Shown: in pieces, positions 10,785 through 39,171 of the stretch
Numbering within the stretch: the first letter of the stretch is position 1
Layout of the letters: every line of letters begins with the position of its first letter
Virus record (IMG/VR): IMGVR_UViG_3300034104_003015
Location: 1-42,313 of that record
Direction: 5' to 3' (one strand)
DNA from: a virus
DNA: 42,313 nt
The notes under the pieces: generated by a model
Told to the model about the DNA's origin: nothing
What the model saw: the letters and a program-made list of their open reading frames with translations, nothing else
Database searches by the model: none
Made by a program: the position numbers and the translations under genes

Positions 10785-10787
10785 AAT

Positions 10788-11018: not shown

Positions 11019-11026
11019 TTATAAAC

Positions 11027-11797: not shown

Positions 11798-11798
11798 A

Positions 11799-12410: not shown

Positions 12411-12443
12411 ATTAACCCCTTTATTAATAGTATTAATAAATCG

Positions 12444-12473
12444 ATGCCTCTCAAAAAGAGGCATTTCTTTTTC
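12444..12473 (+). terminator. Intrinsic terminator after protease gene
   Basis: ATGCCTCT (12444-12451), loop CAAAA, AGAGGCAT (12457-12464), then TTCTTTTT. It separates the protease transcript from the scaffold/capsid transcript. Confidence 0.88.
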
Positions 12474-12565
12474 CACTCCTGTGTATTTTTCAAAAATCCG
12501 GACATATGTATATTAGAATATACTGCCCGTTTCCCTTATGCAGTATTTGATATTAACAATTCTAT

Positions 12566-21215: not shown

Positions 21216-24200
21216 ATGAGCCAAAAAGTTAAATTACGCAGAAGCGCAATTCCAGGAAACAAACCTACAACAACCCAATTAGATTTAGGAGAATTAGCCA
21301 TCAATACTAATGATGGTAAAATATATTTTGAAAAATCCTCTTCTTTAGGAGAATCAATTCAAGAAGTATTTGTAACAGATGCTTGGATAACAGGTTCATT
21401 ACAAGTTACTGGTTCAAATACTTTAATTGGAACTACTTCATTAACTGGCTCACTTAATGTATCAGGTTCAACAACTCAAATTGGTAATAATACATTAATT
21501 GGAGAAACAGTATTATCCGGTAGTATTATTATTTCAGGATCAGGAGCTCCAGGTTCACCTACAGCCTCTGTTCAAATATTTGGTAACACTGAACAAACTG
21601 GATATTTAAGATTTTTACCTGTAACCACTAATATAGATACTTCTATATCAGCTTCATACATTTATGTTTCTGGCTCTACAAATGACTTATATTTTTCCCA
21701 AAATGGTGAAGGATATACTAACGTAACTCGTTTACGTTGGTTAGAAGGTAATTTATACACAGGTTTATTACATGGTGGTGTACTTTCTACAGCTTCATCT
21801 ACTGTTTATCAAATAAGTAGTGGTAGTGGTATTATAGTAAATTTAAATGCAAGTTTAACTGATGATCCATTTCCAACAATACAATATTTAAATTGGGGAA
21901 ATTTAACTGCTAGTATAGCTCCTCTTACAGCTTCATATCAACAAGCTTTTGTTGGTATTGATTCAACTAATAACATTTTTCAACAAGGTACTCCATTTTC
22001 AAATGGTCAGTTTGATGTAATAATTAATATTGGTAATGTGTTATTTCAAAACCAATCAACAATTAATGGTGTTAAAACACAACCTTCAGTTGCTTATGGA
22101 GCTCAACAACAACAAAATGTATTTAATAGAGCATTTGGTCCTTTAAAATTATCTGGATATACTTTAGCACCTAGTGGTTCTTCAACTGGTGGTTTAATAG
22201 TTGGAAGTGGTACAGCTTACGCACCAGGTTCTAACTATATTATAGATCCAAACGAACCTTATTATACTGTTGATAATGGAACTAATATATCTAAAATATT
22301 TAGATACTACCAGTCAGGATCTACTTGGGTATATTTAACAAATGCTGGTGCGGGATTTACTACAATTGACCCTAGCCAATATTCAAATAATGGTACTTTA
22401 ACTCCAGTGCAACCTAATGATTGGTCTATACAACGTGTATTTTGGTTTCCCAATTCAGTAACAAAAGCGATAGTTGTATATTATGGTAATCAATCTTATT
22501 CAACTGAAGCTAATGCTATAGCTAATATAAACATTGAATCATTTGTTGAAGCCCCTAACACAGCGGCAAATGCGATTTATTTAGGAGCAATAATAATTAG
22601 AGGTAACGGTGTGTTTACCAATGCCTCTGATTTTACAATTGTACCAGGAGGCTTATTTAGACAAGTAGGAGGATCAGGAGGTGGAGGTTCTATAATAACT
22701 CAAACTTTAGCAGGCTTATCCGATGTTAATATATCAGGTCCTTTAAATGGACAGCCTTTAGTGTATAATAATATATCAACTAAATGGGAAAACAGTAGTA
22801 CATTAACAGCAAGTTTAGATGGTAATGCTACAACAGCAACATCAGCCTCATACGCTTTAAGTTCATCTTATGCTTTAACAGCATCATTTGCCATCACGCC
22901 TACAGTATCTGGTTTATCAGGTATTTCAGGTTTAAGTGGTATATCTGGTTTAAGTGGCCTTTCAGGCATATCAGGCTTAAGTGGTATATCTGGACTTTCA
23001 GGAACTTCAGGTATCTCAGGTTTAGAAGGTACTTCTGGTATAAGTGGTCTTTCAGGCCAAGTAGGATCTTCAGGTCTTTCTGGTTTAAGTGGTACTTCTG
23101 GCATATCAGGTCTAGAAGGTACTTCAGGAATTTCTGGACTTTCAGGTGCATCAGGCCAAGTAGGTACTTCAGGTATAAGCGGTTTATCAGGTGCAAGTGG
23201 TCAGGTTGGAGCGAGTGGTATTTCAGGTCTAGAAGGTACTTCAGGACTTTCTGGTCTATCAGGAGCATCAGGTGCTTCAGGTCAAGTTGGTACTAGTGGT
23301 ATAAGTGGTCTATCAGGTGCGAGTGGTGCATCTGGTCAAATAGGAACTTCAGGAATATCAGGTTTAAGCGGTGCTTCAGGTATAAGTGGTCTTTCAGGAG
23401 CAAGTGGTGCTTCAGGTCAAGTTGGAACAAGTGGTATTTCAGGTCTAGAAGGTACTTCAGGTATATCAGGTTTATCAGGTCAAATAGGTACATCTGGTTT
23501 ATCAGGTTTAAGCGGTACATCAGGAGCTAGTGGTATTTCAGGTTTATCTGGTGCTTCAGGTCTTTCAGGACTAAGCGGTGCTTCAGGAGCATCAGGCCAA
23601 GTAGGTACTTCAGGTCTTTCAGGATTATCAGGAGCTAGTGGTGCTTCAGGTGCAAGTGGAGCCTCAGGTCAAGTAGGTGCTAGTGGTATAAGTGGTCTTT
23701 CAGGAGCAAGTGGTGCTTCAGGCCAAGTTGGAACAAGTGGTATAAGTGGTTTATCAGCTGCTACATCAATATCTAATAATGTAGATAATTACATTGTAAC
23801 AGCAACAGGAAACTCAGGAACTCCATTTAATGGTGAATCTTTACTTCAATTTGATGGCCAAAAATTAAGTGTATTATATCAATCAGGAGATGAAGGTGGA
23901 GAAATACTTTTAAATAAACCAGTCACTAACACATCACTTACAGGTAGTGGTATAACTATTGACTCATATCAAAATAGAATAAGATTTTTTGAACAAGGAG
24001 GTACAGCGAGAGGAGCTTACATTGATTTAACAGCGTGTTTAGGAGGTGCGGGAACAAATTTACTTTCAGGAGGTGCATCTGGACTTTCAGGTTTATCAGG
24101 TGCTTCAGGTGCTTCAGGACAAGTAGGTACTTCAGGTATCTCAGGACTAAGTGGAGCCTCAGGTGCGAGTGGAGCATCAGGAGCATCAGGTGCAAGCGGT

Positions 24201-26918
24201 ATAAGTGGTCTTTCAGGAGCAAGTGGTGCTTCAGGAGCAAGTGGTCAAGTTGGTACATCTGGTATAAGTGGTTTATCAGGTGCTAGTGGTGCTTCAGGAC
24301 AAATAGGAACATCTGGTATTTCAGGACTAAGTGGTGCTAGCGGAGCTTCAGGTGCAAGTGGTGCGTCAGGAGCAAGTGGAATTAGCGGTTTATCAGGTGC
24401 AAGCGGTGCATCAGGACAAGTAGGAACAAGCGGTATTTCAGGTTTATCAGGCGCTAGTGGAGCAAGTGGTGCTTCAGGTGCAAGTGGTGCTTCAGGTGCT
24501 AGCGGTATTTCAGGTTTATCAGGCGCTAGTGGAGCAAGTGGTGCTTCAGGTGCAAGTGGTGCTTCAGGTGCTAGCGGTATTTCAGGTTTATCAGCTGCTA
24601 CTTCTATAACTAATAATGTTAATAATTATGTAGTAACAGCTACAGGAAATTCAGGTACTCCATTTAATGGAGAAGCAAATTTAACATTTGATGGTTCGAC
24701 ATTAGAAGTAAGTGGTTCAGCTCAAGTTTCTCGAATTTCATCAGCTACTACTACTTTATATAATACATATAGAGCAAATAATATTGAAGTTGGATATATA
24801 GGAAATGGAGAAGGATTAGTTAGTGGTGGTTCAGCTACATCTTTTGGTATTAGAGCAGAATCAGACATGATTTTTGCAATTACAAATACTACAAGAATGG
24901 TAATTTCAAGTAGTGGTAATGTAGGTATTGGTACTACAACTCCACAAGGTAAACTATCTATTGATGGTGGAAATATTAGATTTAACTATAATAATGCAGC
25001 CGCTAATTATTATATGTATTTAAATCATGCTAATGCTCAAGATGGTGGTATATTATTGTCTAGAGATAATTCCACATTAGATTGGCAGATGAGCAATGCA
25101 GCGTCATCAGGAGACTTTTTCTTATATTCATATGGTACTAGTGCTTCACCATTTTATATAACAAGAGCTAATGGTTATGTAGGTGTTGGATTAACATCAC
25201 CTCAAAAACCATTAGATGTATTTTCAAATGCTAATGATTTTGTTACTGTAGGTGCTTATCAATTAGGAGTAGGTCAATGGGCTGGTATACATTTTGGTTA
25301 TAGGGAAAATAATACAAATTATAGAAAATCAGCTATAGTATTCCAAAGAACAGACCTTACATCTGGAAATGCTCAAGGAAAGGTACATATATTAAATGGA
25401 CCACAAGCAGGTGCTGGAAGTGCTACTTTATCAGATGCTAAATTAACTATTGCTGAAAATGGTAATGTAGGTATTGGTTATACAAGTCCAGCAGCATTAT
25501 TACAAATTGGATATCAAAATACATCAGCTGAACTTTTAAGATTAGGTATTAATTACTCTGCTCAAAACTCTGAAAGAGGTGCTATTATTTGGCATGATGG
25601 TTCTGGAATAACAGGTAAAATTTGGAGTGAATATGATGGTACTAATACAAAATTAAATTTTGGTGGATTATATAATGGCTCTTATAATCAAGGAACTGTT
25701 TTAACTATTAATGGAAATAGTAATGTAGGTATAGGAACAGTAGACCCACTTTCTAAATTATATATAGAAGGAGGATCAGCAGATTGGAATGAAACAACTC
25801 CAGGTTTATCAGTAGGTACTATACATTTAGATCCAGGAGTAACTACTGATAACTTTGGAAACGCTATTACATTTGGAACTTCAGATTCAGCAGGTGGTAC
25901 ACAAGCACAAGCTGGAATATATATAAGATCAGATGGTGCGTATGGTACTAAAATGTATTTTGCTACTACAAATGCTTATATATCAGGAGCAAAAACAGCG
26001 ATGATGATAAATTCTGATGGTACTATAGGTGTAGGAACAACATCTCCACTTTCATCATTTGATGTTTTAAATAAAGTATTAATAGGAACTGATGGTACTT
26101 ATGGTTCAGGATATGGAATGATAGGTTTTGGTGGTACTACAAATGGATCAAATAGAATTATAGCTTCTCCCACGGGTACTGATGGTATATATATTATGGC
26201 TGCTACAAGTCGAGCAATATACTTTAGACCAAACGGAGGTACTACAGATACATTAATAGTAGGAGCTAATGGAGAATTAACACAATTAGAAACAATAAAT
26301 ATAAATGACTCAGTACCTTTAGCATTTACTAATACAGGTACTGGTAATAATCAAACATTAATATACGCTAATACAACTAATTACTTATTATTTGATGTTG
26401 CTGCTAATGCTCCTTATGTTAATTTTAAGAAAAGAGGACAAGCAACATCAACAATGTTCTTAGACACTACTAACTTTAGAGTAGGTATCAATAATAACAC
26501 ATCACCTGCTGTATCATTAGATGTTACTGGTGATATAAATGCTACAGGAGATATAGTAGCTTACGCTTCAGATGAAAGATTAAAAACAAATTTACAACCT
26601 ATAGAAAATGCTTTAGATAAAGTTAATACTTTAAGAGCAATTACTTATGAACAAAGTGAATTAGCTAATAAATATATGGAACCTAGACCATATAGACAAG
26701 CAGGGGTTATAGCTCAAGATGTACAAAAAGTATTACCTGAAGTAATAAAATTAGCTCCATTTGATACTACTAGAGATGAAAATAATAATATAGTAAGTAA
26801 AACAGGAGAAAATTATTTAACAGTACAATATGATAAATTAGTACCTTTATTAATTGCTTCAATTCAAGAATTAACTAATAAAGTAAATAGTTTAGAAGAA
26901 CAACTTAAAAATAAATAG
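21216..26918 (+). CDS. 1900-aa collagen-like tail fibre with S74 chaperone
   Basis: Residues 1-60 (KVKLRRSAIPGNKPTTTQLD, LGELAINTNDGKIYF) form the fibre attachment module common in T4-like phages. Residues about 60-545 are beta-rich with TGSL/SYAL repeats. Residues 566-847 are 94 uninterrupted Gly-X-Y triplets, and residues 953-1126 another 58, mostly Gly-(Leu/Ile/Ala/Thr)-Ser with no proline. Each tract ends in the same linker (SAATSIxNNVxNYxVTATGN). Then comes a long beta-structured receptor region with NVGIGTTxP-type repeats (about 1225-1780). The C terminus (S1785 in YASDERLKTN, then AGVIAQDVQKVLPEV) is an endosialidase-type intramolecular chaperone (Peptidase_S74) that trimerises the fibre and then cuts itself off. 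Confidence 0.92.
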   Translation: MSQKVKLRRSAIPGNKPTTTQLDLGELAINTNDGKIYFEKSSSLGESIQEVFVTDAWITGSLQVTGSNTLIGTTSLTGSLNVSGSTTQIGNNTLIGETVLSGSIIISGSGAPGSPTASVQIFGNTEQTGYLRFLPVTTNIDTSISASYIYVSGSTNDLYFSQNGEGYTNVTRLRWLEGNLYTGLLHGGVLSTASSTVYQISSGSGIIVNLNASLTDDPFPTIQYLNWGNLTASIAPLTASYQQAFVGIDSTNNIFQQGTPFSNGQFDVIINIGNVLFQNQSTINGVKTQPSVAYGAQQQQNVFNRAFGPLKLSGYTLAPSGSSTGGLIVGSGTAYAPGSNYIIDPNEPYYTVDNGTNISKIFRYYQSGSTWVYLTNAGAGFTTIDPSQYSNNGTLTPVQPNDWSIQRVFWFPNSVTKAIVVYYGNQSYSTEANAIANINIESFVEAPNTAANAIYLGAIIIRGNGVFTNASDFTIVPGGLFRQVGGSGGGGSIITQTLAGLSDVNISGPLNGQPLVYNNISTKWENSSTLTASLDGNATTATSASYALSSSYALTASFAITPTVSGLSGISGLSGISGLSGLSGISGLSGISGLSGTSGISGLEGTSGISGLSGQVGSSGLSGLSGTSGISGLEGTSGISGLSGASGQVGTSGISGLSGASGQVGASGISGLEGTSGLSGLSGASGASGQVGTSGISGLSGASGASGQIGTSGISGLSGASGISGLSGASGASGQVGTSGISGLEGTSGISGLSGQIGTSGLSGLSGTSGASGISGLSGASGLSGLSGASGASGQVGTSGLSGLSGASGASGASGASGQVGASGISGLSGASGASGQVGTSGISGLSAATSISNNVDNYIVTATGNSGTPFNGESLLQFDGQKLSVLYQSGDEGGEILLNKPVTNTSLTGSGITIDSYQNRIRFFEQGGTARGAYIDLTACLGGAGTNLLSGGASGLSGLSGASGASGQVGTSGISGLSGASGASGASGASGASGISGLSGASGASGASGQVGTSGISGLSGASGASGQIGTSGISGLSGASGASGASGASGASGISGLSGASGASGQVGTSGISGLSGASGASGASGASGASGASGISGLSGASGASGASGASGASGASGISGLSAATSITNNVNNYVVTATGNSGTPFNGEANLTFDGSTLEVSGSAQVSRISSATTTLYNTYRANNIEVGYIGNGEGLVSGGSATSFGIRAESDMIFAITNTTRMVISSSGNVGIGTTTPQGKLSIDGGNIRFNYNNAAANYYMYLNHANAQDGGILLSRDNSTLDWQMSNAASSGDFFLYSYGTSASPFYITRANGYVGVGLTSPQKPLDVFSNANDFVTVGAYQLGVGQWAGIHFGYRENNTNYRKSAIVFQRTDLTSGNAQGKVHILNGPQAGAGSATLSDAKLTIAENGNVGIGYTSPAALLQIGYQNTSAELLRLGINYSAQNSERGAIIWHDGSGITGKIWSEYDGTNTKLNFGGLYNGSYNQGTVLTINGNSNVGIGTVDPLSKLYIEGGSADWNETTPGLSVGTIHLDPGVTTDNFGNAITFGTSDSAGGTQAQAGIYIRSDGAYGTKMYFATTNAYISGAKTAMMINSDGTIGVGTTSPLSSFDVLNKVLIGTDGTYGSGYGMIGFGGTTNGSNRIIASPTGTDGIYIMAATSRAIYFRPNGGTTDTLIVGANGELTQLETININDSVPLAFTNTGTGNNQTLIYANTTNYLLFDVAANAPYVNFKKRGQATSTMFLDTTNFRVGINNNTSPAVSLDVTGDINATGDIVAYASDERLKTNLQPIENALDKVNTLRAITYEQSELANKYMEPRPYRQAGVIAQDVQKVLPEVIKLAPFDTTRDENNNIVSKTGENYLTVQYDKLVPLLIASIQELTNKVNSLEEQLKNK
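22911..23756 (+). repeat. Gly-X-Ser collagen-like tract 1 (94 triplets)
   Basis: A 282-residue tract with Gly at every third position. The Y position is almost always Ser, the exceptions being GLE, GQV and GQI triplets. At DNA level the codons for each triplet vary (tca/agt/tct; ggt/gga/ggc), so the 9-bp unit is far less repetitive than the protein. Confidence 0.95.
24072..24593 (+). repeat. Gly-X-Ser collagen-like tract 2 (58 triplets)
   Basis: A 174-residue tract in the same fibre, dominated by Gly-Ala-Ser blocks separated by GIS-GLS and GQV-GTS units. One block at about 24448-24593 contains a near-exact direct DNA repeat of roughly 75 bases, suggesting a recent duplication. Confidence 0.93.
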
Positions 26919-26920
26919 TT

Positions 26921-27487
26921 ATGACTATAACAGGTTCAGGAGCAATTTTGATGAGTGATTTAAATATAGAGTTTGGAAGAGGAGGTACCTCTCAACTTTC
27001 ATTATCTCAATCATTCGCTGGTACTTATGCTCAATATGGTGCTATAAATAGAAATACTGAAGCAGGTCAAAATGTAACTAGTGTATTTAATGGAGGTACT
27101 GATTTTGCTATAAGTTGGTTTTATGATTATAATGATACAGCTACAGTACATTGGACTTATAATTTTGAAAACGTATCACCAACTTTAATTAACATAAGTG
27201 TTGATTATAATTCTGTTAATTTATATAATATAATGGGATGGGCAGGTGTTGACACTAACTCAGATGTTAATACAGGAACTTCAAGTGGAGCTAGTTTAGG
27301 TGATATAAATTTAACATTAAACGCAGGCGGTATTCCTAATTTTGTAGATATAACTTGTTATGATACTGATACTAGGGATATTATATTTCAAATAACTGGA
27401 GATACACCTAATAATTATGGTGGAGGTTCAATTGGTCAAATTTATGGTTATCAACGCTTTACTTTAGATCTATATTTTTACGATTAA
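26921..27487 (+). CDS. Small adhesin-like structural protein
   Basis: This 188-aa protein starts 2 nt after the long fibre gene. The start TITGSGAILMSDLNIEFGRG resembles the short module (GxISMSDIxxEFG) found at the beginning of many phage virion proteins near fibres. The rest is aromatic and Asn/Thr-rich, with beta character (ISWFYDYNDTATVHWTYNFE), ending YQRFTLDLYFYD. It may be a fibre tip or accessory protein. No enzymatic motif is seen. Confidence 0.65.
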   Translation: MTITGSGAILMSDLNIEFGRGGTSQLSLSQSFAGTYAQYGAINRNTEAGQNVTSVFNGGTDFAISWFYDYNDTATVHWTYNFENVSPTLINISVDYNSVNLYNIMGWAGVDTNSDVNTGTSSGASLGDINLTLNAGGIPNFVDITCYDTDTRDIIFQITGDTPNNYGGGSIGQIYGYQRFTLDLYFYD

Positions 27488-27510: not shown

Positions 27511-27906
27511 ATGGCAATAGAAATTTCAAATTTTAACCCTGTATGGACTTTTGTTAACTCTAACACAGCTCCTATATCTAATGTTATTCCTCAATTTTAT
27601 GATGGAACTTACTTATTTGTTTTATGCTCTATAAATAATGGAACATCAGTTTCAGTTACAGCTAACTTATATGATAAAAAACCAGGTTATATTACAGGTT
27701 CATTACCTTCAGGTTCAGCATCAGGCTCCCAACCTCCAATAGTTTATAATGGTGCTGTGATGATAGCAAATCTAAACTATGGAAGTATTGAAACAGATGT
27801 TCAAGGTAATATTTTATTAGCCGGACATGAATATATTGTATCTCAATCATTAATACAAAATCCAACAGTAGACTTTACTATAGTTGATCTTTCAGGTTCT
27901 ATATAA
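27511..27906 (+). CDS. Hypothetical structural protein in fibre cluster
   Basis: This 131-aa protein, beginning MAIEISNFNPVWTFVNSNTA, is beta-rich with Ser/Gly segments (TGSLPSGSASGSQPPIVYNG). No signal peptide, membrane span or known domain is visible. Its own TATTTAT motif and its position between adhesin-like and glycosyltransferase genes suggest a virion component of the fibre system. The TTTGGCTTTTTA box begins at its stop codon. Confidence 0.6.
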   Translation: MAIEISNFNPVWTFVNSNTAPISNVIPQFYDGTYLFVLCSINNGTSVSVTANLYDKKPGYITGSLPSGSASGSQPPIVYNGAVMIANLNYGSIETDVQGNILLAGHEYIVSQSLIQNPTVDFTIVDLSGSI

Positions 27907-27946: not shown

Positions 27947-30232
27947 ATGAAACAAATTACAGTTATAATCCATACGGAAAGTGATCTGCTTTTAGATACA
28001 TTAATTGATACTTTAAGAATAAGTAATATAAGGGAGAACATAACTAACCTTTTAATAAATGCTAAAGGATGTACTCCTTGGACTAATGATATATTATTTC
28101 AAAAAATAATCTCTTTACCTAAGAATTATTATGAAATAACTCCTACAGAAAAATCTTCTACAAACTCAATAGTAGAACTTTTAACTAAAGTTAAAACAGA
28201 ACAAGTTTTAATATTACATGAAAATATATTACCGCTTATACCATTTAAAGAATGGGATAAAACGACTAATACTTATTTATTAGCGCCTACTAATGATTTA
28301 TTACGCCTTAATTGGGACAATAAATACAATTATATAAACGGGTTTATTGCGGATTTAATAACACAAAAAACAGGATATATCTTTGATATAAAAGATGAAC
28401 GTTATTTTAAAAAAGCAAAACATCCTTTACTTAATGAAAGAATAATTCATATAGGGGGTGGTTTAGGAGATCATGTTATGGCTTATCCTTTATTAGAAAA
28501 AATAGGAAAAGATGTTTATGTTTCTTGTGTTTATCCATTTGCTATAAGTCATATTAAAACTAAAGGGCAAATAGAATGGTCAGATGAATTATTTGGAGGT
28601 TATAATAGATTTGTTTATAATTATGGTTCTTCAAATAATACTCCTACTATAATAGATGCTTACTTTGAAATGTATGGAGAAAAAAGAGAAGAACAAGATA
28701 TACTAAAATACACAGGTCCTATAACTCCTTATGAAAAATATAAACCAATAGCTCTAATAAGTACAACAGCAGCTAAAATTGGAGGATTAGATTCAAATAA
28801 AGATTGGCCTGAAATTAGATGGTTTAAATTAATATATGAATTAAAACAATTAGGTTATCATGTTATACAAGTAGGTTCTTATAAAGATAATCAATTACCT
28901 TTATCTCCAGCTCCTGGAGGAGTAGATGAAAAATTTTTAGACAGATCAATTCCAGAATTAGCGGGCTTAATTGAAGCCTCAGATTTATGGTTAAGTGTAG
29001 ATACATTCTTTCATCATTTTGCTTCATCAGTAAAACCAGAAGTAGGAATATGTTTAACACCATTTTATAATAATCATGCTAAACATAAAAGAGTTACTTA
29101 CATAGAAAAAGATTGTGGTAAAGATTATTATGATAGAAGATGGTGGCTAGATTCACAACAACCAGAAAGAAAAGATTGTATGAATTTAATTACGGTAGAA
29201 GATGTTTTAAAAAAGATTAATAAACCTAATACTAAAAGAAAATATAAAGTAATATATTATAGTTTAGGACCTAAAGATAATTGTTCTAATTGGAGAGCTT
29301 ATATGCCATTTGATAGGACATCAGAACATATAGAATATAATATAATTGATTTAAATAATGATAAGTTTGATTTAGAAAGAGATAAACAAGTAGATATAGT
29401 AATATTTAATAGACCAGTAATAAATTTATTAGATTATATAAAAACATTACAATCATTTGGAGTTAAAGTTATAGTAGATTATGATGATGTATTTCCTTAT
29501 GTAGATTTAACTGAATCAGTTTTTATAACTGCTTATACAGAAATGTTAAGTATTTTACAACAAACTGATATGGTAATAACCACTAATAATACTTTAAAAT
29601 TTTATTTTGAGAAACATACTAAAAAACCAGTAGTTGTATTTCCTAATATAGTAAATCCTAATTATGTATCTATAAAAGAAGATAGAAAAGATAATAAAAT
29701 AATTTTAGGGTGGTATGGAAGTGGAGGTCATTTACCTTCATTAAAAATGATTAATAAAGATGTTTTAAAAATATTAGATAAGTTTGATAATGTATATTTT
29801 AATTTATATACAGATAATCAAGAAATAATAAATTTATTTAAACATTCTAAAACTACAGTATATCCTTATAATCATAATTTTAATCAATTCCAAAATAATT
29901 TAAATGATATAGATATTAATTTAGCACCATTAGAAGAAAACTATATTAATTTAGGAAAATCAGACATTAGAATACAATTAGCTGCGTTTAAAGAAATAGT
30001 GAGTATAGCTAGTAATTTTGGAGAATATAAAAATTTTGGGAAATTAAATAAAGGAGTTGTTTTAGTAGAAGATGATTGGTATAATGCTATTAAAGAATTA
30101 GTATCTAGTTCTAATAAATTACATAAACTTAAAGTTAACGCTTTAAAGACTATAAATGAATATTATAATTATGAAAAATGGTCTAATATAAAAGATCAAA
30201 CATTAATAAATTTAATAAATGACAAGAATTGA
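27947..30232 (+). CDS. Two-domain glycosyltransferase (GT9-like plus GT4-like)
   Basis: This 761-aa protein has at least two sugar-transfer modules. Residues 1-160 are an unassigned alpha/beta region that may be a degenerate GT-A domain. Residues about 164-420 resemble GT9 heptosyltransferases: RIIHIGGGLGDHVMAYPLLE, then STTAAKIGG...DWPEIRWFKL, VIQVGSYKDN and ELAGLIEASDLWLSVDTFFH. Residues about 425-760 resemble a GT4/GT-B fold: VKVIVDYDDVFPYV, VVFPNIVNPNYV, IILGWYGSGGHLPSL and INLAPLEENYINLGKSDIRI. Cytosolic, with no membrane span. Fusion of different GT families in one chain suggests sequential assembly of a short glycan. It overlaps the next gene by 14 nt. Confidence 0.85.
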   Translation: MKQITVIIHTESDLLLDTLIDTLRISNIRENITNLLINAKGCTPWTNDILFQKIISLPKNYYEITPTEKSSTNSIVELLTKVKTEQVLILHENILPLIPFKEWDKTTNTYLLAPTNDLLRLNWDNKYNYINGFIADLITQKTGYIFDIKDERYFKKAKHPLLNERIIHIGGGLGDHVMAYPLLEKIGKDVYVSCVYPFAISHIKTKGQIEWSDELFGGYNRFVYNYGSSNNTPTIIDAYFEMYGEKREEQDILKYTGPITPYEKYKPIALISTTAAKIGGLDSNKDWPEIRWFKLIYELKQLGYHVIQVGSYKDNQLPLSPAPGGVDEKFLDRSIPELAGLIEASDLWLSVDTFFHHFASSVKPEVGICLTPFYNNHAKHKRVTYIEKDCGKDYYDRRWWLDSQQPERKDCMNLITVEDVLKKINKPNTKRKYKVIYYSLGPKDNCSNWRAYMPFDRTSEHIEYNIIDLNNDKFDLERDKQVDIVIFNRPVINLLDYIKTLQSFGVKVIVDYDDVFPYVDLTESVFITAYTEMLSILQQTDMVITTNNTLKFYFEKHTKKPVVVFPNIVNPNYVSIKEDRKDNKIILGWYGSGGHLPSLKMINKDVLKILDKFDNVYFNLYTDNQEIINLFKHSKTTVYPYNHNFNQFQNNLNDIDINLAPLEENYINLGKSDIRIQLAAFKEIVSIASNFGEYKNFGKLNKGVVLVEDDWYNAIKELVSSSNKLHKLKVNALKTINEYYNYEKWSNIKDQTLINLINDKN

Positions 30233-32618
30233 TATTATCAATGCTTTAATTAAAAAGCATAATTATAAAACCTATGTAGAAATAGGAGTAAGAAATCCAG
30301 ACGATTGTTTTAGTCATATTAATTGTGAAACAAAACACGGTGTAGATCCTGGAGTAGAAGGTTCTTGGAAAGTTACATTTAATATGACTTCAGATGAATT
30401 TTTTAATTCTAATCCTCAAAAGTATGATATTATTTTTATAGATGGTCTTCATATAGATGATCAAGTAGAAAGAGATATTATTAATAGTTTAAATTATTTA
30501 AATGAAAATGGTTCTATAATATTACATGATTGTAATCCACCTACAATACATCATGCTAGAGAAAATTATTATGATGTATCTACACCAGCTTCAGGAGATT
30601 GGAATGGAACTGTATGGAAAGCTATAGTTAAAGTAAGATCTGAACTAGATAATATTTACACAAGTGTAGTTGATACAGATTGGGGAGTAGGAATTATACA
30701 AAAATCAAATAAAGGAAATAAAATTATAAATGATAATCCTTACTATACTTATGAAAAATTTTCATCTAATAGAAAACATTATTTAAATTTAATCACTCCA
30801 GATGAATTTTTAGAACAATATATAGGAGTTGAATTACAGCCTACAAGTTCTAAACCTAATATCACTTGGTTAGCAAAATATGATGATTATTCTTCAATGG
30901 GTATTTTATCTCAAAGAATATTAGAACAGTTAGATAAACGAGATTATAATTTAGCTTGTAAAGCTATAATTGGCACTACTGAAACTGAAAATCCTTTAAT
31001 ATATGATTTATTAAGTAAAACACCTAAAAAGGATATAGGAATAATGTTTTCGTATCCTGATATGATAGGATATTTAGATGAATTTAAAACTAAAGTAATT
31101 TATACAGGTGTTGATACAACAGATGAGGCAGGAAATTTTGTAGAAAATGCTAATAAAGTAGATTATTTATTTACACCTTCAAAATTATCTAAAAAAAGAA
31201 TAGAAAATATGGGTGTTAAAAAACCTGTGTTTGTTTTACCTCATGGTATTGATCCTGAAGTATTTAAATATACTGAAAGAACTAAAACCGATATATTTAA
31301 GTTTTTATATATAGGAGAATGTTCAGATAGAAAAGGTATATTTCATTTATTAAAAGCATTTACTGATTTATTTAAAAATAATCCTAAAGTAGAATTACAT
31401 ATTAAATCAAATACTGATATGTTATTTTATAATAGTAAAGAAGTACAAGATATTATAAAAGATTATAAAAATATATTTTGGCATATTGGTAATGTAGGAC
31501 ATGATGAAGTAATTAAGTTATATAAAGAATGTCATGCTTATGTTTATCCTTCTAGAGGAGATTCATTTGGAATGACTTTATTAGAAGCAATGGCGTGTGG
31601 GTTACCTATAATTACTACTAAATTACCAGGAGCAACAGATGTAGTAGATGGTAAAGTTACTTATATAAAATCAAAAATAGTTCCAGTACAAGGTCATCCA
31701 TGGTTTAAAGGAGAATGGGGTGAACCTGATTTAGAAGATTTAAAATCTAAAATGAAATTATTATATAAAAATTATAATACTTCTAAACTAAAAGAATATT
31801 CTGATTTTATTAGAGAAAATTATTCTTGGGAAAAAATAGCTGATAAATTTGAACAAGAAATATTACCTAGATTAGGTAAAAAAACTAAAGTATTAACATT
31901 ACTTACTTCTTATAATAGACCGCATCATATTAAAAATGTGATTCAATCATTAAAAGAAATTGAAGAACAAGATGTTATAAATGATGTTTATATAGTTGAA
32001 AATTCAAATCCTGAATATAAAGAAGAATGTTTAAATATAATAAATAAAAATACTGACGGTAGATTTATATTATATAATTCTAAATTTAATTTAGGACAAC
32101 GTGGTTCATTACTTCAAATGTTAGATGATATAAATATAGATGAATATGATTATATTCAATTTACAGATCAAGATAATATATTTATAGAACCTATCAGTAC
32201 ATACTGTAATATATTAGATCAATATGATAAATATTTTGTATCAACAGGTTATATGAGTAAAGAACATACTGAAATGAATTGGATAAATAATCAATGGGGT
32301 AATTTATGTGAAAAAAGAACATGTAGAGCAGGACATATGATGTTTAGATCTAATGATATAAAAAGTTTATTACCTATATATTTAGACAGTCAACATAATG
32401 AACCTAGAGTTAACTCATCATGGAATGCCGGTTTAGATTGGGAATTAACTTATTGGAACCCTAAATCACCAGGATTTTTAACTTCAGATAATTTTATAAT
32501 ATGTGTTCCTGGTGGAGTAATACATAAAGGTATAGATAGTACTATATATGAATGGCCAGTAGAAGAAAATGAATATACTTTAGAAGAATTAAAAAAATTA
32601 CGAAATAAGATTAATTAA
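30219..32618 (+). CDS. Methyltransferase-GT4-GT2 fusion protein
   Basis: This 799-aa protein has three domains. Residues 1-165 are a class I SAM-dependent methyltransferase (KTYVEIGVRNPDD as motif I; YDIIFIDGLHIDDQVERDI, GSIILHDCNPP). Residues about 207-540 are a GT4 glycosyltransferase (FLYIGECSDRKGIFHLLKAF; SRGDSFGMTLLEAMACGLPI with the donor-binding E-x7-E pattern). Residues about 548-790 are a GT2/GT-A domain (LTLLTSYNRPHHIKNVIQSL; DYIQFTDQDN as a DxD-like metal site). Together with the preceding gene, 14 nt overlapping, this gives four or five transferase modules and a methyl-capping activity. I infer synthesis of a methylated glycan, with fibre or virion proteins as the nearest possible acceptors. 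Confidence 0.87.
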   Translation: MTRIDIINALIKKHNYKTYVEIGVRNPDDCFSHINCETKHGVDPGVEGSWKVTFNMTSDEFFNSNPQKYDIIFIDGLHIDDQVERDIINSLNYLNENGSIILHDCNPPTIHHARENYYDVSTPASGDWNGTVWKAIVKVRSELDNIYTSVVDTDWGVGIIQKSNKGNKIINDNPYYTYEKFSSNRKHYLNLITPDEFLEQYIGVELQPTSSKPNITWLAKYDDYSSMGILSQRILEQLDKRDYNLACKAIIGTTETENPLIYDLLSKTPKKDIGIMFSYPDMIGYLDEFKTKVIYTGVDTTDEAGNFVENANKVDYLFTPSKLSKKRIENMGVKKPVFVLPHGIDPEVFKYTERTKTDIFKFLYIGECSDRKGIFHLLKAFTDLFKNNPKVELHIKSNTDMLFYNSKEVQDIIKDYKNIFWHIGNVGHDEVIKLYKECHAYVYPSRGDSFGMTLLEAMACGLPIITTKLPGATDVVDGKVTYIKSKIVPVQGHPWFKGEWGEPDLEDLKSKMKLLYKNYNTSKLKEYSDFIRENYSWEKIADKFEQEILPRLGKKTKVLTLLTSYNRPHHIKNVIQSLKEIEEQDVINDVYIVENSNPEYKEECLNIINKNTDGRFILYNSKFNLGQRGSLLQMLDDINIDEYDYIQFTDQDNIFIEPISTYCNILDQYDKYFVSTGYMSKEHTEMNWINNQWGNLCEKRTCRAGHMMFRSNDIKSLLPIYLDSQHNEPRVNSSWNAGLDWELTYWNPKSPGFLTSDNFIICVPGGVIHKGIDSTIYEWPVEENEYTLEELKKLRNKIN

Positions 32619-32672: not shown

Positions 32673-32900
32673 ATGTTCACATTCATCATCATTGCTCTTG
32701 TAGTTATTGGAATAATAGGTATTATTATTCACACATCGTCTAAACCATCATTAAAAGAAATTGAAGAAACAAGTAAAAACGAATCTTACACTTCAGATTT
32801 ACCATTTAATGAAGATTTTCCTATTGTAGAAAAAACACCTACAATGAAACCTAAAAAATCTTCAAATTCATCAAAATCAAAAAAAACATCTAAAAAATAA
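32673..32900 (+). CDS. Small single-span membrane protein
   Basis: This 75-aa protein has an N-terminal membrane segment (residues 2-21, FTFIIIALVVIGIIGIIIHT), then a Ser/Thr/Glu linker and a strongly basic Lys/Ser tail (MKPKKSSNSSKSKKTSKK). It lies between the glycosyltransferases and the next structural gene, 2 nt before the latter. It could be a lysis-related protein or anchor. No family recognised. Confidence 0.6.
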   Translation: MFTFIIIALVVIGIIGIIIHTSSKPSLKEIEETSKNESYTSDLPFNEDFPIVEKTPTMKPKKSSNSSKSKKTSKK

Positions 32901-33461: not shown

Positions 33462-36400
33462 ATGGCAAAAGTACTGTCTAATTCAGGTATTGTAACAGGT
33501 GATATTGTACAAGCTCAACACGTTTCTCAATCAGTAAATGCTTTAACAGGGGTTGAAGCTTATGATATAACAATAAGTGGTTCATTAACTGTAATTGGTC
33601 CTGTAGATGTATCAGGTAATATTACAGCTCCATCATTTACTGGAACTGCTTCATACGCTGGAACTTCATTAACAGCTACAACAGCATCTTATGCATTAAC
33701 TGCTTTATCATCTTCATATGCTCTTACAGCATCATTTGCTGTTACTCCTACTGTATCTGGTTTATCAGGTATTAGTGGTATAAGTGGTATCTCAGGATTA
33801 TCAGGTCTATCTGGTCTTTCAGGTATATCAGGTTTAAGTGGTATATCAGGTCTATCTGGTCTTTCAGGTATATCAGGTTTAAGTGGTATATCAGGATTAA
33901 GTGGTATTTCAGGTTTGTCAGGAATATCAGGTATTAGTGGTATATCAGGATTGTCAGGAATATCTGGTATCTCAGGTATTTCAGGATTAAGTGGTTTATC
34001 TGGTATAAGCGGTATTTCAGGGTTATCAGGTATTAGTGGTATATCAGGATTGTCAGGAATATCTGGTATAAGTGGTTTATCAGGAGCTATAGGCCCAGTA
34101 GCTGGTTCAGCTAATCAAGTAGTTTATAAAGACGGATCTAATAATCCAGCGGGTTCAAATAACTTTACTTATGATGGAACTACAGTAACTATAACAGGTA
34201 ATTTAACAGTTAATGGAACTGGTAGTATAACATATTTAAATACAATATACGAAACAGCATCTGTAATATATTCATCTGGTTCTAATCAATTTGGTGATGC
34301 TACAGATGATATTCAATTATTAATAGGAACTACTAAAATATCAGGTAGTTTACAAGTAACAGGTAGTACTTCTTTATCAGGTAGTTTACAAGTAATAGAT
34401 GTACCTCAAGGTACAAATGAAACTAAAGTAGTAATGTTAGATAATTCTAACAATTTAGTTTATAGAACAAATTTAAGTATTTCAGGTATAAGTGGTATAT
34501 CAGGTATATCAGGATTGAGCGGTGTTTCAGGCTTAAGTGGCATATCAGGTCTAAGTGGAATTTCAGGTTTGTCTGGTATTTCAGGTCTATCTGGTCTTTC
34601 AGGTATATCAGGTTTAAGTGGTATATCAGGTCTATCTGGTATTTCCGGATTATCAGGAGTTTCAGGTTTAAGCGGCATATCAGGATTATCAGGTCTATCT
34701 GGTCTTTCAGGAATATCAGGTCTTTCAGGCATATCAGGTCTAAGTGGAATATCAGGCATCTCAGGACTTTCAGGTCTAAGTGGTATATCAGGATTATCTG
34801 GAGTTTCAGGTTTAGAAGGAACTTCAGGTATTTCAGGTCTTATTGGTATACCAGTATTTACACCTGTATTTTCAAATACTTCTTATGGAGTTGATTCTTC
34901 AACATTTATAAACACTGGAGGTAGTGGAAGTAGTTTTGATGCTTATGTTTATTCAACTCAAGGGTATAGAAGAGGAGCTTATGTCACTGCTAAAACAACT
35001 AGTAACTCACAATTCTCAGCTTTTGGTTTATCTGAGACTATAAGTTCTGCTAATCCTTTAGATATAAGTTTTGGACTTTACTTTGAAGAAACTACAGGTG
35101 ATGTATCTATAATTGAAACAGGTTCAATAGGATCACCAATATCAACATATTCATCAGGAGATACTTTTTATATAACATATGATGGTTATAATATAAGATA
35201 TTATATAAATAATACTTTACTACAAACTACTTCAAGAGCACTAGGTAACTCATTATATTTCAGTTCAGTTTATCGAACAGCCAATGAAGGATTTACTAAT
35301 GTAGGTTTTGGACCTATGGGTGAACAAGGTACTTCAGGTATTTCAGGTTTATCAGGCATTTCAGGCATCTCTGGTTTATCAGGTATTTCAGGTTTATCAG
35401 GCATTTCAGGCCTATCAGGTTTATCAGGTCGTTCAGGTCTTTCAGGTACAGCTGGAACTTTAACTTTAACAGGAACAACAGATAATGGTGTTATAACATT
35501 AAATGGAACTGCGCCTAACGCGACTGTAGAATCTAATTTAACATTTGATGGCACTGTTTTAAATATCACAGGTCGAATAACAAGCAGCGGAGATCTATTA
35601 GTTAATGGTATAGTGGTAGGTAGAGGAAAAGGAAATGATGATTCAAATGTAGTTTTAGGTAGGATAGCATTAGTTTCTAATACATTTGGAATACAAAATA
35701 CAGCAATAGGTACAGCGGCATTAAATGCTAATTTAGGAGGAAGTAATAATACAGCAGTAGGATATTCTACATTATTAAGTAATCAAGGAGGTTCTCAAAA
35801 TACAGCAATAGGTCAATATGCCTTATTAACCAATAGTTCAGCAAATGAAAATACAGCTATAGGTTTTTCTGCAATGTATGAAAATACAGTAGGAGCTAGT
35901 AATGTAGCTATAGGTGTAGATGCTCTAAAAAATAATAAAGGAGGTTCTAGTATTGTTGCTATAGGAAAAGATGCTATGTTATATTATTCAACGTTTACCA
36001 ACGCAACTTTAATAGGTTCAGTAGCTGTAGGAGCAGGAGCATTAGTAGGTTCATCATTTGGAAATAACACAGCACAATATAATACAGCAATAGGATATGA
36101 ATCCTTAGCTATAACTAATACAGGAGCAAATAACACAGCACTTGGAGCATTTGCTTTAAGATATAACATTAATGGTGGTAAAAATACAGCGGTAGGATAT
36201 CAAAGTATATTTTCAAATAATACATCTGTTGAAAATACAGCAGTAGGATACCAAGCTATGTATACTTCAAGTGGTAATTATAATGTTGCTGTTGGTAATG
36301 AAGCTTTATATGGTAGTATTATTTCATCTCCAAATGGTTCTAATAATATAGCTGTAGGATATAGAGCTTTACAATTACTATCCACTGCGAATAATAACAC

Positions 36401-37148
36401 ATCTATAGGTTATACAGCGGGACAAAATATAACAACCGGTTCAAATAATACTCTTTTAGGATATAGAGCAGGAAATGGAATTACTACAGGATTTAACAAT
36501 ACACTTGTAGGATATAATACTGGAACAACTATTAATACAGGAACTCATAATACTATTTTAGGTTTATATGAAGGTGCTAATATAAGTAGAACAGTAATTT
36601 TAGCGGATGGAAATGGTATAATTTATTTATATGCTACTGGAAGTAAAACAGCAATAAATAAATCAGAAACACCTAATGCAACATTAGATGTTAATGGTAA
36701 TACAATAATCACAGGCTCATTAACAGTAACAGGACCTATAAGAAATATTGTAAATGATGGATTTGTAAGTTGTAGTTTATCAACTTCAGGAACTGGAGCT
36801 GATAGAACTATATTAGCTACATTTAATGAAGTAGATGGAACTGCTTTAACTAATCCACGTCAATTAGTACATTGGTGGACGTCAACATCACAATTTGGAG
36901 AAGCGGCTAGAACATTTGGTAGTCCAACTACAGTTACACCGGTTTTCTCAGTGACTACAGGTAGTAATGTGACACCTATAGCAAGTACTTCAGGCTCAAT
37001 AAATCACGCTGTGACTAACACATCAGGTCAATTAGGTTTAAGATTAACAACAAGTAATACAGCAGGATCAGCTACAGTATGGTTTCATACAGAAGTACAA
37101 GGTATAATATATTCAATAAGCACAACTATATTTAATACAGGAGCATAA
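33462..37148 (+). CDS. 1228-aa collagen-like fibre with YadA-like repeats
   Basis: The N terminus (AKVLSNSGIVTGDIVQAQHV) is followed by SYALTALSSSYALTASFAVT, almost identical to the segment that precedes the first Gly-X-Ser tract of the 1900-aa fibre. Three tracts follow: residues 100-207 (36 triplets), 342-458 (39) and 623-661 (13), mainly GLS and GIS with no proline. Between tracts are beta domains (residues about 460-620). Residues about 740-1040 carry many copies of NTAIGxxAL/NTAVGYxxL, resembling the YadA head beta-roll. The C terminus (NPRQLVHWWTSTSQFG to SISTTIFNTGA) is unassigned and lacks an S74 chaperone. It is probably a second, separately evolved adhesin. Confidence 0.88.
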   Translation: MAKVLSNSGIVTGDIVQAQHVSQSVNALTGVEAYDITISGSLTVIGPVDVSGNITAPSFTGTASYAGTSLTATTASYALTALSSSYALTASFAVTPTVSGLSGISGISGISGLSGLSGLSGISGLSGISGLSGLSGISGLSGISGLSGISGLSGISGISGISGLSGISGISGISGLSGLSGISGISGLSGISGISGLSGISGISGLSGAIGPVAGSANQVVYKDGSNNPAGSNNFTYDGTTVTITGNLTVNGTGSITYLNTIYETASVIYSSGSNQFGDATDDIQLLIGTTKISGSLQVTGSTSLSGSLQVIDVPQGTNETKVVMLDNSNNLVYRTNLSISGISGISGISGLSGVSGLSGISGLSGISGLSGISGLSGLSGISGLSGISGLSGISGLSGVSGLSGISGLSGLSGLSGISGLSGISGLSGISGISGLSGLSGISGLSGVSGLEGTSGISGLIGIPVFTPVFSNTSYGVDSSTFINTGGSGSSFDAYVYSTQGYRRGAYVTAKTTSNSQFSAFGLSETISSANPLDISFGLYFEETTGDVSIIETGSIGSPISTYSSGDTFYITYDGYNIRYYINNTLLQTTSRALGNSLYFSSVYRTANEGFTNVGFGPMGEQGTSGISGLSGISGISGLSGISGLSGISGLSGLSGRSGLSGTAGTLTLTGTTDNGVITLNGTAPNATVESNLTFDGTVLNITGRITSSGDLLVNGIVVGRGKGNDDSNVVLGRIALVSNTFGIQNTAIGTAALNANLGGSNNTAVGYSTLLSNQGGSQNTAIGQYALLTNSSANENTAIGFSAMYENTVGASNVAIGVDALKNNKGGSSIVAIGKDAMLYYSTFTNATLIGSVAVGAGALVGSSFGNNTAQYNTAIGYESLAITNTGANNTALGAFALRYNINGGKNTAVGYQSIFSNNTSVENTAVGYQAMYTSSGNYNVAVGNEALYGSIISSPNGSNNIAVGYRALQLLSTANNNTSIGYTAGQNITTGSNNTLLGYRAGNGITTGFNNTLVGYNTGTTINTGTHNTILGLYEGANISRTVILADGNGIIYLYATGSKTAINKSETPNATLDVNGNTIITGSLTVTGPIRNIVNDGFVSCSLSTSGTGADRTILATFNEVDGTALTNPRQLVHWWTSTSQFGEAARTFGSPTTVTPVFSVTTGSNVTPIASTSGSINHAVTNTSGQLGLRLTTSNTAGSATVWFHTEVQGIIYSISTTIFNTGA
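33759..34082 (+). repeat. Gly-X-Ser tract B1 (36 triplets)
   Basis: Residues 100-207 of the second fibre. Only GLS and GIS units, with scrambled synonymous codons. Gly is at every third position without a break. Confidence 0.95.
34485..34835 (+). repeat. Gly-X-Ser tract B2 (39 triplets)
   Basis: GLS/GIS with a few GVS and one GLE-GTS unit near the end. Located between two beta domains of the second fibre. Confidence 0.95.
35328..35444 (+). repeat. Gly-X-Ser tract B3 (13 triplets)
   Basis: Short third tract, GTS-GIS-GLS units with one GRS. It leads into the beta domain that precedes the YadA-like repeats. Confidence 0.92.
35690..36590 (+). repeat. YadA-head-like NTAIG/NTAVG repeats
   Basis: About 14 to 18 degenerate units of the form NTAIGxxAL, spaced roughly 14 to 25 residues apart with variable inserts. 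This pattern is known from trimeric autotransporter heads and some phage fibres, where it forms a left-handed beta-roll. Confidence 0.8.
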
Positions 37149-37470: not shown

Positions 37471-39171
37471 ATGGCAGAAACATTAATTTCCCCTGGTGTA
37501 TTAGCAAGAGAAAATGATCAATCATTTATCAGACAACAACCAGTTTCAGTAGGAGCAGCAATTATAGGCCCTACAGTTAAAGGTCCAGTTGAAATTCCAA
37601 CTCTTGTTACTTCATATAGTGACTACGTAAATAAATTTGGTGATGTATTAGAAAGCGGAAGTGATAATTATTCATTTTTAACTTCTATAACAGCATATAA
37701 CTACTTTAACAATGGTGGTACTTCATTATTAGTCGCTAGAGTAGTAAGTGGTTCTTACACTTCAGCTACAAGTACAACAATTGGAAGTATAGGAGCTACA
37801 GCTTCAGCGGCAATTGAATTAAAAACTATATCTGAAGGAACTATAATGAATAGTTCATCTTCTTTAGATGTAAGTGGTTCATTAGCGTCAGGATCAACTG
37901 ATAATATTAGATGGCAAATCTTAAATTCTGATACAGCATCAGGAACATTTAGTTTATTAATTCGTCAAGGTGACGATAACACAAACAATCCAGTTGTTTT
38001 AGAAACTTGGACTGGATTATCATTAGATCCATTCTCTCCAAACTTTGTTTCTAGAGTATTAGGTGATCAAGTACAAAATTACAACTCAGCTACAAACCAA
38101 TTAGAAACATCAGGATCTTACTTTAATAATTCACGTTATGTATATGTAAGTGCAGTTAATAATTTAACTCCTCGTTATTTTAATAACAATGGTATAGCAA
38201 AATCACAATATACAGCTTCAATACCTCAAAATGCAAGTGGTTCATTTAGTGGAGCTACAGGTACTATAAAAGCAGGAGCTAATTTTTATAACGCAATCAA
38301 TTCATCTAACACACAAGGATTAGTAGGTGCTAATTATGATGATATGATTGATTTATTAGCTAACCAAGATGAGTATAGATTTAATGTTATATTAACTCCA
38401 GGCTTAATAAATTCAATACATACTACTCAATGTACTTCAATTATAACAAATACTCAAACTAGAGGTGATAGTTTATATGTATTAGATTTAGTAGAATATG
38501 CTAAAACAGTAAATGATGTTACATCACAAGCTAATTCAAGAAATACTTCATATGCTACTTCATACTGGCCTTGGGTTCAAATATTAGACCCAGGTACTGG
38601 TAAGAACGTTTGGGTTCCAGCTTCAACAGTAATAGGTGGTGTTTACGCATTTAACGACTCAGTAGCAGAGCCTTGGTTTGCACCAGCAGGTATAAATAGA
38701 GGTGGATTACAAGTAATTAGAGCAGAACAAAAATTACCACAATCTTCAAGAGATACATTATATACAAATAAAGTAAATCCTATAGCTACATTCCCTGGAA
38801 CAGGTACAGTAGTATATGGTCAGAAAACATTACAAACTCAAGCATCAGCTTTAGACAGAGTAAATGTTAGAAGATTATTAATTGCTCTTAAAAACTATAT
38901 TTCACAAGTTGCTAACACATTAGTATTCGAACAAAATACAATTGCAACAAGAAACGCATTTTTAAGTCAAGTTAATCCATACTTAGAATCAGTACAACAA
39001 AGACAAGGTCTATACGCATTTAGAGTAATTATGGATGATTCAAATAATACAGCAGATGTAATTGATAGAAATCAATTAGTAGGTCAGATTTATATCCAAC
39101 CAACAAGAACAGCTGAATTTATTTACTTAGACTTTAACATATTACCAACTGGAGCAACATTTCCAGCGTAA
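37471..39171 (+). CDS. 18: Tail sheath protein (gp18-like)
   Basis: This 566-aa contractile sheath subunit shows the family pattern: ETLISPGVLARENDQSFIRQ at the N terminus, VGAAIIGPTVKGPVEIPTLV, a FGDVLES...NYFNNGGTSLLVARVV segment (about residues 56-92), WPWVQILDPGTGKNVWVPAS, and the conserved C-terminal core (RLLIALKNYISQVANTLVFE, YAFRVIMDDSNNTADVIDRN, QIYIQPTRTAEFIYLDFNI). The subunits form the sheath around the tube and contract to drive injection. T4 gp18 is longer (659 aa), mainly from surface domains; here the surface insert is roughly residues 95-270. Confidence 0.96.
   Translation: MAETLISPGVLARENDQSFIRQQPVSVGAAIIGPTVKGPVEIPTLVTSYSDYVNKFGDVLESGSDNYSFLTSITAYNYFNNGGTSLLVARVVSGSYTSATSTTIGSIGATASAAIELKTISEGTIMNSSSSLDVSGSLASGSTDNIRWQILNSDTASGTFSLLIRQGDDNTNNPVVLETWTGLSLDPFSPNFVSRVLGDQVQNYNSATNQLETSGSYFNNSRYVYVSAVNNLTPRYFNNNGIAKSQYTASIPQNASGSFSGATGTIKAGANFYNAINSSNTQGLVGANYDDMIDLLANQDEYRFNVILTPGLINSIHTTQCTSIITNTQTRGDSLYVLDLVEYAKTVNDVTSQANSRNTSYATSYWPWVQILDPGTGKNVWVPASTVIGGVYAFNDSVAEPWFAPAGINRGGLQVIRAEQKLPQSSRDTLYTNKVNPIATFPGTGTVVYGQKTLQTQASALDRVNVRRLLIALKNYISQVANTLVFEQNTIATRNAFLSQVNPYLESVQQRQGLYAFRVIMDDSNNTADVIDRNQLVGQIYIQPTRTAEFIYLDFNILPTGATFPA

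Follow-up and report, generated by a model that had tools for sequence, protein, structure and literature searches.

Two overlapping genes of a T4-like phage probably form a cytosolic cassette that glycosylates the phage's own collagen-like fibres. They lie in a 42.3-kb stretch (all 42,313 nucleotides of which we call the window), a fragment of the IMG/VR virus record IMGVR_UViG_3300034104_003015 that holds the structural block of a T4-like myovirus: terminase, portal, capsid, PhoH, neck, fibres, sheath, and tube. The window terminase is 58% identical to that of Flavobacterium phage immuto and 51% to that of Microcystis phage Mel-JY01. The two open reading frames (ORFs) span exactly 27947-30232 (P0001, 761 amino acids, aa) and 30219-32618 (P0002, 799 aa) on the + strand, with a 14-nt overlap. 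They occupy an island bounded by a neck gene (18076-19392) and the sheath gene (37471-39171), in which two collagen-like fibres enclose the two enzyme genes.

Late in infection, these soluble multi-domain enzymes would build a short glycan on serines of the neighbouring Gly-X-Ser tracts before assembly. The module of glycosyltransferase (GT) family 9 would prime serine with a sugar in the way that the related TibC/Aah heptosyltransferases prime adhesins. Extension of the glycan would fall to the GT4 and GT2 modules, and the methyltransferase would add an O-methyl group. The first-pass annotation had advanced glycosylation and methyl-capping of the fibres as one hypothesis among several, and the relatives described below support it better than its rivals. 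Its chemistry, methyl cap and biological role, like the fibre as substrate, the order of the steps, the identities of the sugars and any benefit (shielding, stiffness, receptor tuning), are what we infer.

The cassette and its fibres

The gene pair had been placed between two Ser-rich fibre genes, rightly, as both flanking products are Gly-X-Ser collagen-like fibres. The fibre at 21216-26918 has 152 triplets with Ser at 88% of Y positions, and the one at 33462-37148 has 96 with 91%; triplet counts found no Lys at Y in the tracts of either. In the window, a search with PF25238 for lysyl hydroxylase (LH) was negative. Searches of Pfam and PHROG gave no enzyme match for the intervening genes (26921-27487, 27511-27906, 32673-32900, 32903-33361). 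P0001 and P0002 are therefore the only recognisable enzymes there, which upholds a further first-pass statement.

Matches on the exact ORFs confirm all the domains listed at first (GT9-like, GT4-like, methyltransferase, GT4 and GT2); the list had overlooked a GT-A-like domain at residues 1-165 of P0001. This region was modelled as a GT-A-like fold, with a mean predicted local distance difference test score (pLDDT) of 84, and its VIA matches are GlfT2 (Z 11.5), the accessory domain of LH3 (Z 11.1), and GalNAc-T2 (Z 10.3). Its metal-binding Asp motif is HEN in the window and DES or DED in relatives. The window motif thus appears degraded, and because the acidic motif seems to be lost, the module may be structural. 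Further along P0001, residues 257-364 match GT9 (PF01075, E 1.5e-5, 24.9 bits, above the gathering score of 22). The GT9 module keeps the GGLGD and VDTFFHHF motifs, and D175, D352, T353, and H356 are invariant in a 9-row alignment. It has the GT-B catalytic fold of GT9 type, with D175 in the GD motif; its VIA matches are 3tov (Z 17.6), TibC (Z 16.9), and WaaF (Z 16.4), and it is also close to WaaC. Residues 442-752 match the PHROG 7162 glycosyltransferase (E 2.7e-24).

In P0002, residues 45-105 match Methyltransf_24 (E 1.3e-7) and residues 356-479 match GT4 (Glycos_transf_1, E 2.9e-23); the GT2 match at residues 563-656 is below cut-off (0.0022). There are no transmembrane-type hydrophobic segments in either chain. 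Searching PDB by phmmer with P0001 and the GT9 profile gave no useful match, and no bacterial homologue of the GT9 unit was confirmed in the genome contigs searched.

Relatives and TibC-type enzymes in the same island

The gene arrangement recurs in relatives at 51-69% protein identity and is therefore no chance event. The recurring order in the closer ones is neck, fibre, 188-aa gene, 131-aa gene, cassette, 152-aa gene, fibre, sheath. A scan of IMG/VR with P0002 returned 17 loci, of which 13 have GT4 paired with GT2. Gly-X-Ser collagen ORFs lie near the pair in nine of these 13 window-lineage loci, and the other four records terminate inside the cassette or within 1.2 kb upstream. The GT-A/GT9 alignment, used as query, found 14 loci of the family, among them the window's own virus and three near-identical ones, plus two remote matches; a Gly-X-Ser collagen ORF is present in 13 of the 14. 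Every copy of the window's two-gene set seen so far either accompanies Gly-X-Ser fibres or belongs to a record that is cut at the cassette or close to it. The cassette is modular, with the GT-A/GT9 unit first and GT2 last. At its smallest (L171) it consists of GT-A/GT9 and GT2; the other extreme is chains of 2287 aa, with FkbM, GT17, rhamnosyl-methyltransferase-like, and other domains added. L179 retains the window domain order with extra sequence and different gene splits. This modularity may diversify the glycan while its ends stay fixed.

Sister phages carry true members of the TibC/Aah family (BAHT, TIGR04414) in the same island. Against a TIGR04414 cut-off of 200 bits, the enzymes score 329.9 (L109), 317.4 (Mel-JY01), 214.6 (L118), and 198.4 (L121). 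The L109 enzyme matches TibC (4rap) at 1.6e-60; the alignment pairs up the GD motif, whose Asp is D110 by a hand count, and all four iron cysteines. Across the sister enzymes, the four iron-finger cysteines are invariant in 10 rows and the catalytic aspartate of the GD motif is kept; L109-type islands thus combine a score above cut-off, the catalytic Asp, and the four cysteines. The TibC/Aah family attaches heptose to adhesin serines. According to the passages of PMC4358343, TibC modifies serines, not threonines, of the adhesin repeats, and its four iron-coordinating cysteines are required.

In Mel-JY01, a chain that combines GT4, methyltransferase, and TibC domains comes no more than 2 kb after a Gly-X-Ser ORF. 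This 1016-aa frame (L021, PP395634.1, 2-3052, + strand) is annotated as two opposite-strand hypothetical proteins and one short one, and is probably a mis-annotated fibre. In the huge phage LR756501, 3.7 kb separate a Gly-X-Ser ORF from a GT4-TibC gene; in LR756504, also a huge phage, no collagen ORF lies within 20 kb on either side of the TibC-like gene. Immuto, the cultured relative closest to the window, lacks Gly-X-Y ORFs in the structural region, and its genome gives no TIGR04414 match. The 1243-aa GT4-TibC chain of L121 (10979-14710), in an island without collagen, ends in a PIG-L deacetylase domain.

The window GT9 differs from these enzymes. P0001 was tried as a TIGR04414 member and rejected, as neither it nor the window as a whole gives a match, and its G003 orthologue reaches 14 bits. 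Of the C-terminal cysteines only C390 is invariant (9-row alignment), the second being substituted in one L007 copy, so that the iron finger is lacking. Comparison by hhalign of the window-type and TibC-type alignments gave a collinear match with 28% probability (E 6e-4). Given this probability and the TIGR04414 result, we claim a clan-level link only: judged by its sequence, the window GT9 is a clan relative of the TibC family. The two types co-occur in no locus (74 vs 26 loci); therefore they look like alternatives for one job, with replacement of one by the other at one position. Extending the sister-island reading to the window relies on where the cassette sits, on its exclusivity with TibC, and on its GT9 being of the same clan.

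We surveyed relatives through the tail tube, a marker independent of fibre and enzyme, and read 38 of 80 loci as whole records; those left out were mostly short records, some with little upstream sequence. TIGR04414 enzymes are present in 11 of the 12 records with collagen and in 11 of the 26 without (one-sided p 0.0044, confounded by fragments and shared ancestry). With island classes assigned by hand and dereplication by ORF ends only, they occur in 9/9 islands with a collagen fibre vs 5/11 complete islands without (one-sided Fisher 0.012). The neck-sheath island is empty in G030, G031, G042, and G045; elsewhere it is occupied by enzymes or other genes, and collagen fibres may or may not accompany them.

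Because circularity had to be avoided, we also drew virus records by collagen DNA patterns, not by enzyme, and a random set by an arbitrary 14-mer. The pattern samples consist of records of at least 10 kb with clear Ser or Thr tracts, 25 each, surplus Thr records being dropped. TIGR04414 was found in 7/25 Gly-X-Ser records (including a contig-end fragment of 129 bits and a sub-cut-off match of 193 bits; 5/25 are above cut-off), vs 0/25 Gly-X-Thr records (p 0.0096, leaving uncounted a 10.9-bit match in G092) and 0/50 random records (p 3.0e-5). Equal occurrence in phages without such fibres had been named at the outset as evidence against fibre glycosylation. TibC-type enzymes are instead enriched with Gly-X-Ser, although they also occur in the collagen-free islands just mentioned. 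The enzyme is near the fibre or in the fibre island in three of the seven records (G055, G059, G060), and among the others it is farther away wherever the distance could be read.

The window GT9 profile matched 4/25 Gly-X-Ser and 0/25 Gly-X-Thr records, each time as a short GT9-like frame of 149-168 aa, which in two records adjoins the fibre or lies within 2 kb of it. Such stand-alone proteins, resembling the C-terminal half of GT9, are found at L448:11052-11513, L447:7167-7673, L449:10009-10461, and L450:5791-6240. The L448 protein ends 3 nt before the fibre frame, and the one protein checked had no PHROG match. Generic GT4 (PF13692) was dropped as a marker: it is present in 8/25 Gly-X-Ser, 3/25 Gly-X-Thr (p 0.17), and 4/50 random records, and is weak alone.

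Lysine-bearing fibres and lysyl hydroxylases

In islands such as L117, L118, and L123 the fibres bear Lys at Y, at 8-12% of these positions in the first two, and the chain found there joins GT4, GT25 (procollagen galactosyltransferase 1, 1.1e-15), and a lysyl hydroxylase domain. Profile searches of PDB with this domain gave Mimivirus L230 as best match (6ax6, 4.6e-26) and LH3 at 1.1e-24. The HHD and HLHGG motifs, with the HxD...H residues of 2OG-Fe(II) enzymes of LH type, are invariant in 5 rows. The A6 structure model was of no use (pLDDT 40), and the A6 claim rests on sequence profiles.

A collagen ORF is present in 30 of 43 lysyl-hydroxylase loci from IMG/VR, and all 30 have Lys at Y (some in only one triplet). 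Eight of the remaining 13 are cut just upstream; the other five (L159, L161-L164) are not, or less clearly. Among 12,361 triplets of hydroxylase-negative loci there is no Lys at Y, a figure for that set only, in which 39 of 40 ORFs are Ser-rich. Several hydroxylase loci also hold a Gly-X-Ser fibre and a TibC-type chain, and these are cases of two acceptors and two primers.

We picked six cultured phages from 31 matching records. CRP-6, S-CAM9, S-8S53, and S-PRM1 encode a chain of 589-621 aa with a hydroxylase domain at most 2 kb from a Gly-X-Lys fibre; S-B64 and S-SCSM2R have short oxygenases among replication genes. The S-CAM9 chain matches GT25 (1.4e-28) and the PLOD GT domain (7.6e-47), and belongs in PHROGs to phrog_61, 2OG-Fe(II) oxygenase. 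The chains of the cyanophages and the Roseobacter phage listed last in Table 1 are annotated as hypothetical protein or 2OG-Fe(II) oxygenase. That of CRP-6, like that of S-CAM9, also has GT25 and PLOD-GT domains, and the chains resemble human LH3 and collagen galactosyltransferase.

In pattern-chosen records, a hydroxylase occurs in 4/13 with Lys-bearing tracts and 0/37 without (p 0.0031). Left out of this count are L193, L194, L199, and L200, whose collagen ORF is missing or very short, some of the Thr set, and the Lys-poor records G052 and G059, the second of which has a hydroxylase; L225, L248, L276, and L278 are loci with at least 20 Lys at Y that were chosen after the hydroxylase holders were known. 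The hydroxylase therefore goes with Lys tracts, yet Lys tracts often lack it, and the statement that Gly-X-Lys fibres always come with a lysyl hydroxylase is false.

Table 1. Coordinates of the cassette, the fibres, neighbouring genes, and hydroxylase-domain chains (positions in the window unless a locus is given).
Feature	Position	Strand	Evidence
P0001 glycosyltransferase chain, 761 aa, GT-A-like + GT9 + GT4 modules	27947..30232	+	Pfam, PHROG, structure model
GT-A-like N-terminal module, residues 1-165	27947..28441	+	structure model, VIA matches, alignment
GT9 heptosyltransferase-like module, residues 166-428; candidate fibre-serine primer	28442..29230	+	Pfam PF01075, VIA, alignment
GT4-like (GT-B) module, residues 430-761	29234..30229	+	PHROG 7162
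P0002 methyltransferase-GT4-GT2 chain, 799 aa	30219..32618	+	Pfam, PHROG, relatives
Class I methyltransferase module, residues 1-205	30219..30833	+	Pfam PF13578
GT4 module, residues 209-552	30843..31874	+	Pfam PF00534 2.9e-23; PHROG 2170 4.3e-48
GT2 module, residues 555-799, DQD motif	31881..32615	+	weak Pfam PF00535; conserved in relatives
Long collagen-like fibre, 1900 aa, S74 chaperone C-terminus; proposed substrate	21216..26918	+	Pfam, PHROG, triplet count
Gly-X-Ser tracts of long fibre	22911-23756 and 24072-24593	+	triplet count
Second collagen-like fibre, 1228 aa; proposed substrate	33462..37148	+	Pfam, PHROG, triplet count
Gly-X-Ser tracts of second fibre	33759-34100, 34485-34853, 35310-35462	+	triplet count
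Neck-like structural gene, upstream island boundary	18076..19392	+	boundary conserved in relatives
Conserved fibre neighbour, 188 aa, no family	26921..27487	+	recurs at same place in relatives
Conserved neighbour directly before cassette, 131 aa, no family	27511..27906	+	Pfam/PHROG searches; relatives
Conserved gene in gap between cassette and second fibre, 152 aa	32903..33361	+	PHROG 1401 (unknown function); recurs
Tail sheath gene, downstream island boundary	37471..39171	+	Pfam and PHROG
Hydroxylase-domain chains beside Gly-X-Lys tail fibre	L185 (S-CAM9, KU686205.1) 10639-12483; L186 10618-12483; L168 10639-12483; L184 (CRP-6) 10130-11899		

Upstream of the structural block, the window also has, as judged by eye, an NAD(P)/FAD-type oxidoreductase-like frame (590-1900) and a HesB/IscA-like frame (3243-3566).

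Weighing fibre glycosylation

The set of enzymes in the island varies with the chemistry of the acceptor residues in the adjacent collagen-like fibre. This is expected if the fibre is the substrate and unexpected if the enzymes alter host polysaccharides. We consider it unlikely that the cassette remodels a host surface glycan (O-antigen, capsule, or teichoic-type polymer) against superinfection and sits in the fibre region only through hypervariability. Such a role is the one given, in the passages available, for fibre-region glycosyltransferases of pelagimyophages (PMC7029224) and for jumbo-phage clusters (PMC7824862). Among the families common in lipopolysaccharide (LPS) synthesis are GT9 and GT4, the window GT9 being tied with WaaF and close to WaaC in fold, and TibC-type islands without collagen fibres exist. 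However, the enzymes of the sister islands, a protein-serine heptosyltransferase family and a lysyl hydroxylase joined to a collagen-galactosyltransferase-like domain, are of kinds known to act on proteins. Moreover, TIGR04414 tracks Gly-X-Ser, not Gly-X-Thr fibres, and the genes stand among virion structural genes on the same strand.

Collagen-free TibC-type islands must have another target, and mycobacteriophage capsid and tail tube are glycosylated (Freeman 2023, as cited in PMC12619734). The idea that the cassette acts on some other virion protein (capsid, sheath, tail tube, or a non-collagen fibre domain) nevertheless strikes us as improbable, given how regularly Gly-X-Ser fibres stand next to the cassette and how the enzymes are exchanged to match the acceptor. 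Phage glycosyltransferases can also modify DNA, as a passage of PMC12619734 states. DNA base hypermodification or another intracellular target is very improbable here: searches of Pfam, PHROG, and TIGR04414 gave no family match to DNA glycosyltransferases, and the position of the cassette is structural, not replicative.

Several observations weigh against fibre glycosylation itself. The fold of the window GT9 is tied between TibC and LPS heptosyltransferases, and the protein falls outside TIGR04414; the 5/11 complete islands with TibC-type enzymes and no collagen fibre count on the same side. In the pattern sample, 14/25 Gly-X-Ser records have neither TibC nor window-type GT9. The window-type cassette of L179 accompanies glycine-rich adhesin-like proteins, with no Gly-X-Ser fibre in the 3.2 kb upstream, which is all the record holds. 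G045 has a Gly-X-Ser fibre of at least 2601 aa (L120:12198-20000), downstream of the tail genes and outside the neck-sheath island, and no GT4 or TibC match in its 45.7-kb record; it is either a counterexample or an incomplete genome.

Among known systems, the TibC/Aah family is alike in having soluble GT9-clan enzymes that act on a repetitive Ser-containing surface protein, and its true members occupy the same island in sister phages. The window GT9 differs in failing TIGR04414, in lacking the four-cysteine iron finger, in being fused to GT4, in having a GT-A-like N-terminus where TibC/Aah have a beta-barrel, and in its proposed substrate, a collagen-like fibre rather than adhesins. In mycobacteriophages, phage-encoded glycosyltransferases likewise decorate virion proteins, the targets cited in PMC12619734 being capsid and tail-tube C-termini, not collagen-like fibres. 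Chlorovirus multi-domain glycosyltransferase-methyltransferases build virion glycans, and Mimivirus modifies collagen, according to the passages of PMC9614988. As described there, PBCV-1 A064R and A111/114R have several glycosyltransferase domains per chain, A064R with a methyltransferase, and build and methylate a capsid glycan. PBCV-1 is, however, a eukaryotic algal virus with an N-glycan on its capsid protein, and the likeness noted here is one of domain make-up and glycan building. Mimivirus L230, human LH3, and procollagen galactosyltransferase 1 offer a parallel of virus-encoded collagen modification, and both domains recur in sister phage islands; they are absent from the window, whose fibre tracts have no Lys at Y. 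Finally, pelagimyophages and jumbo phages have glycosyltransferase clusters in their genomes, among tail-fibre genes in the former, which the passages of PMC7029224 and PMC7824862 read as host-surface modification.

None of the papers listed by a search of listings, abstracts, and passages, with few subscription papers, deals with phage collagen-like fibres being glycosylated, or with TibC-family enzymes or lysyl hydroxylases of phages. Phage virion glycosylation, chlorovirus multi-domain enzymes, and Mimivirus collagen modification are thus already known, and collagen-like phage fibres as the target are probably new. We judge the chances to be even that acceptor-matched collagen glycosylation operates in tailed phages. 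Ser tracts would be primed by GT9-clan enzymes of TibC or window type, and Lys tracts by LH3/Mimivirus-like fusions of hydroxylase and collagen-galactosyltransferase-like domains. The primer would be swapped with fibre chemistry and other cassette parts shuffled to diversify the glycan, making the sugar-coated fibre a virion trait of uncultured T4-like phages, huge phages, and cultured cyanophages.

Cultured phages, S-CAM9 and Roseobacter phage CRP-6 among them, offer a means of testing this. If many glycosyltransferases of fibre regions act on the phage's own fibres, then host-range fibres are glycoproteins, and their sugars, besides their sequence, may set stability, shielding, and receptor choice. 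Phages would then be another setting for enzymatic collagen glycosylation, beside animals and giant viruses.

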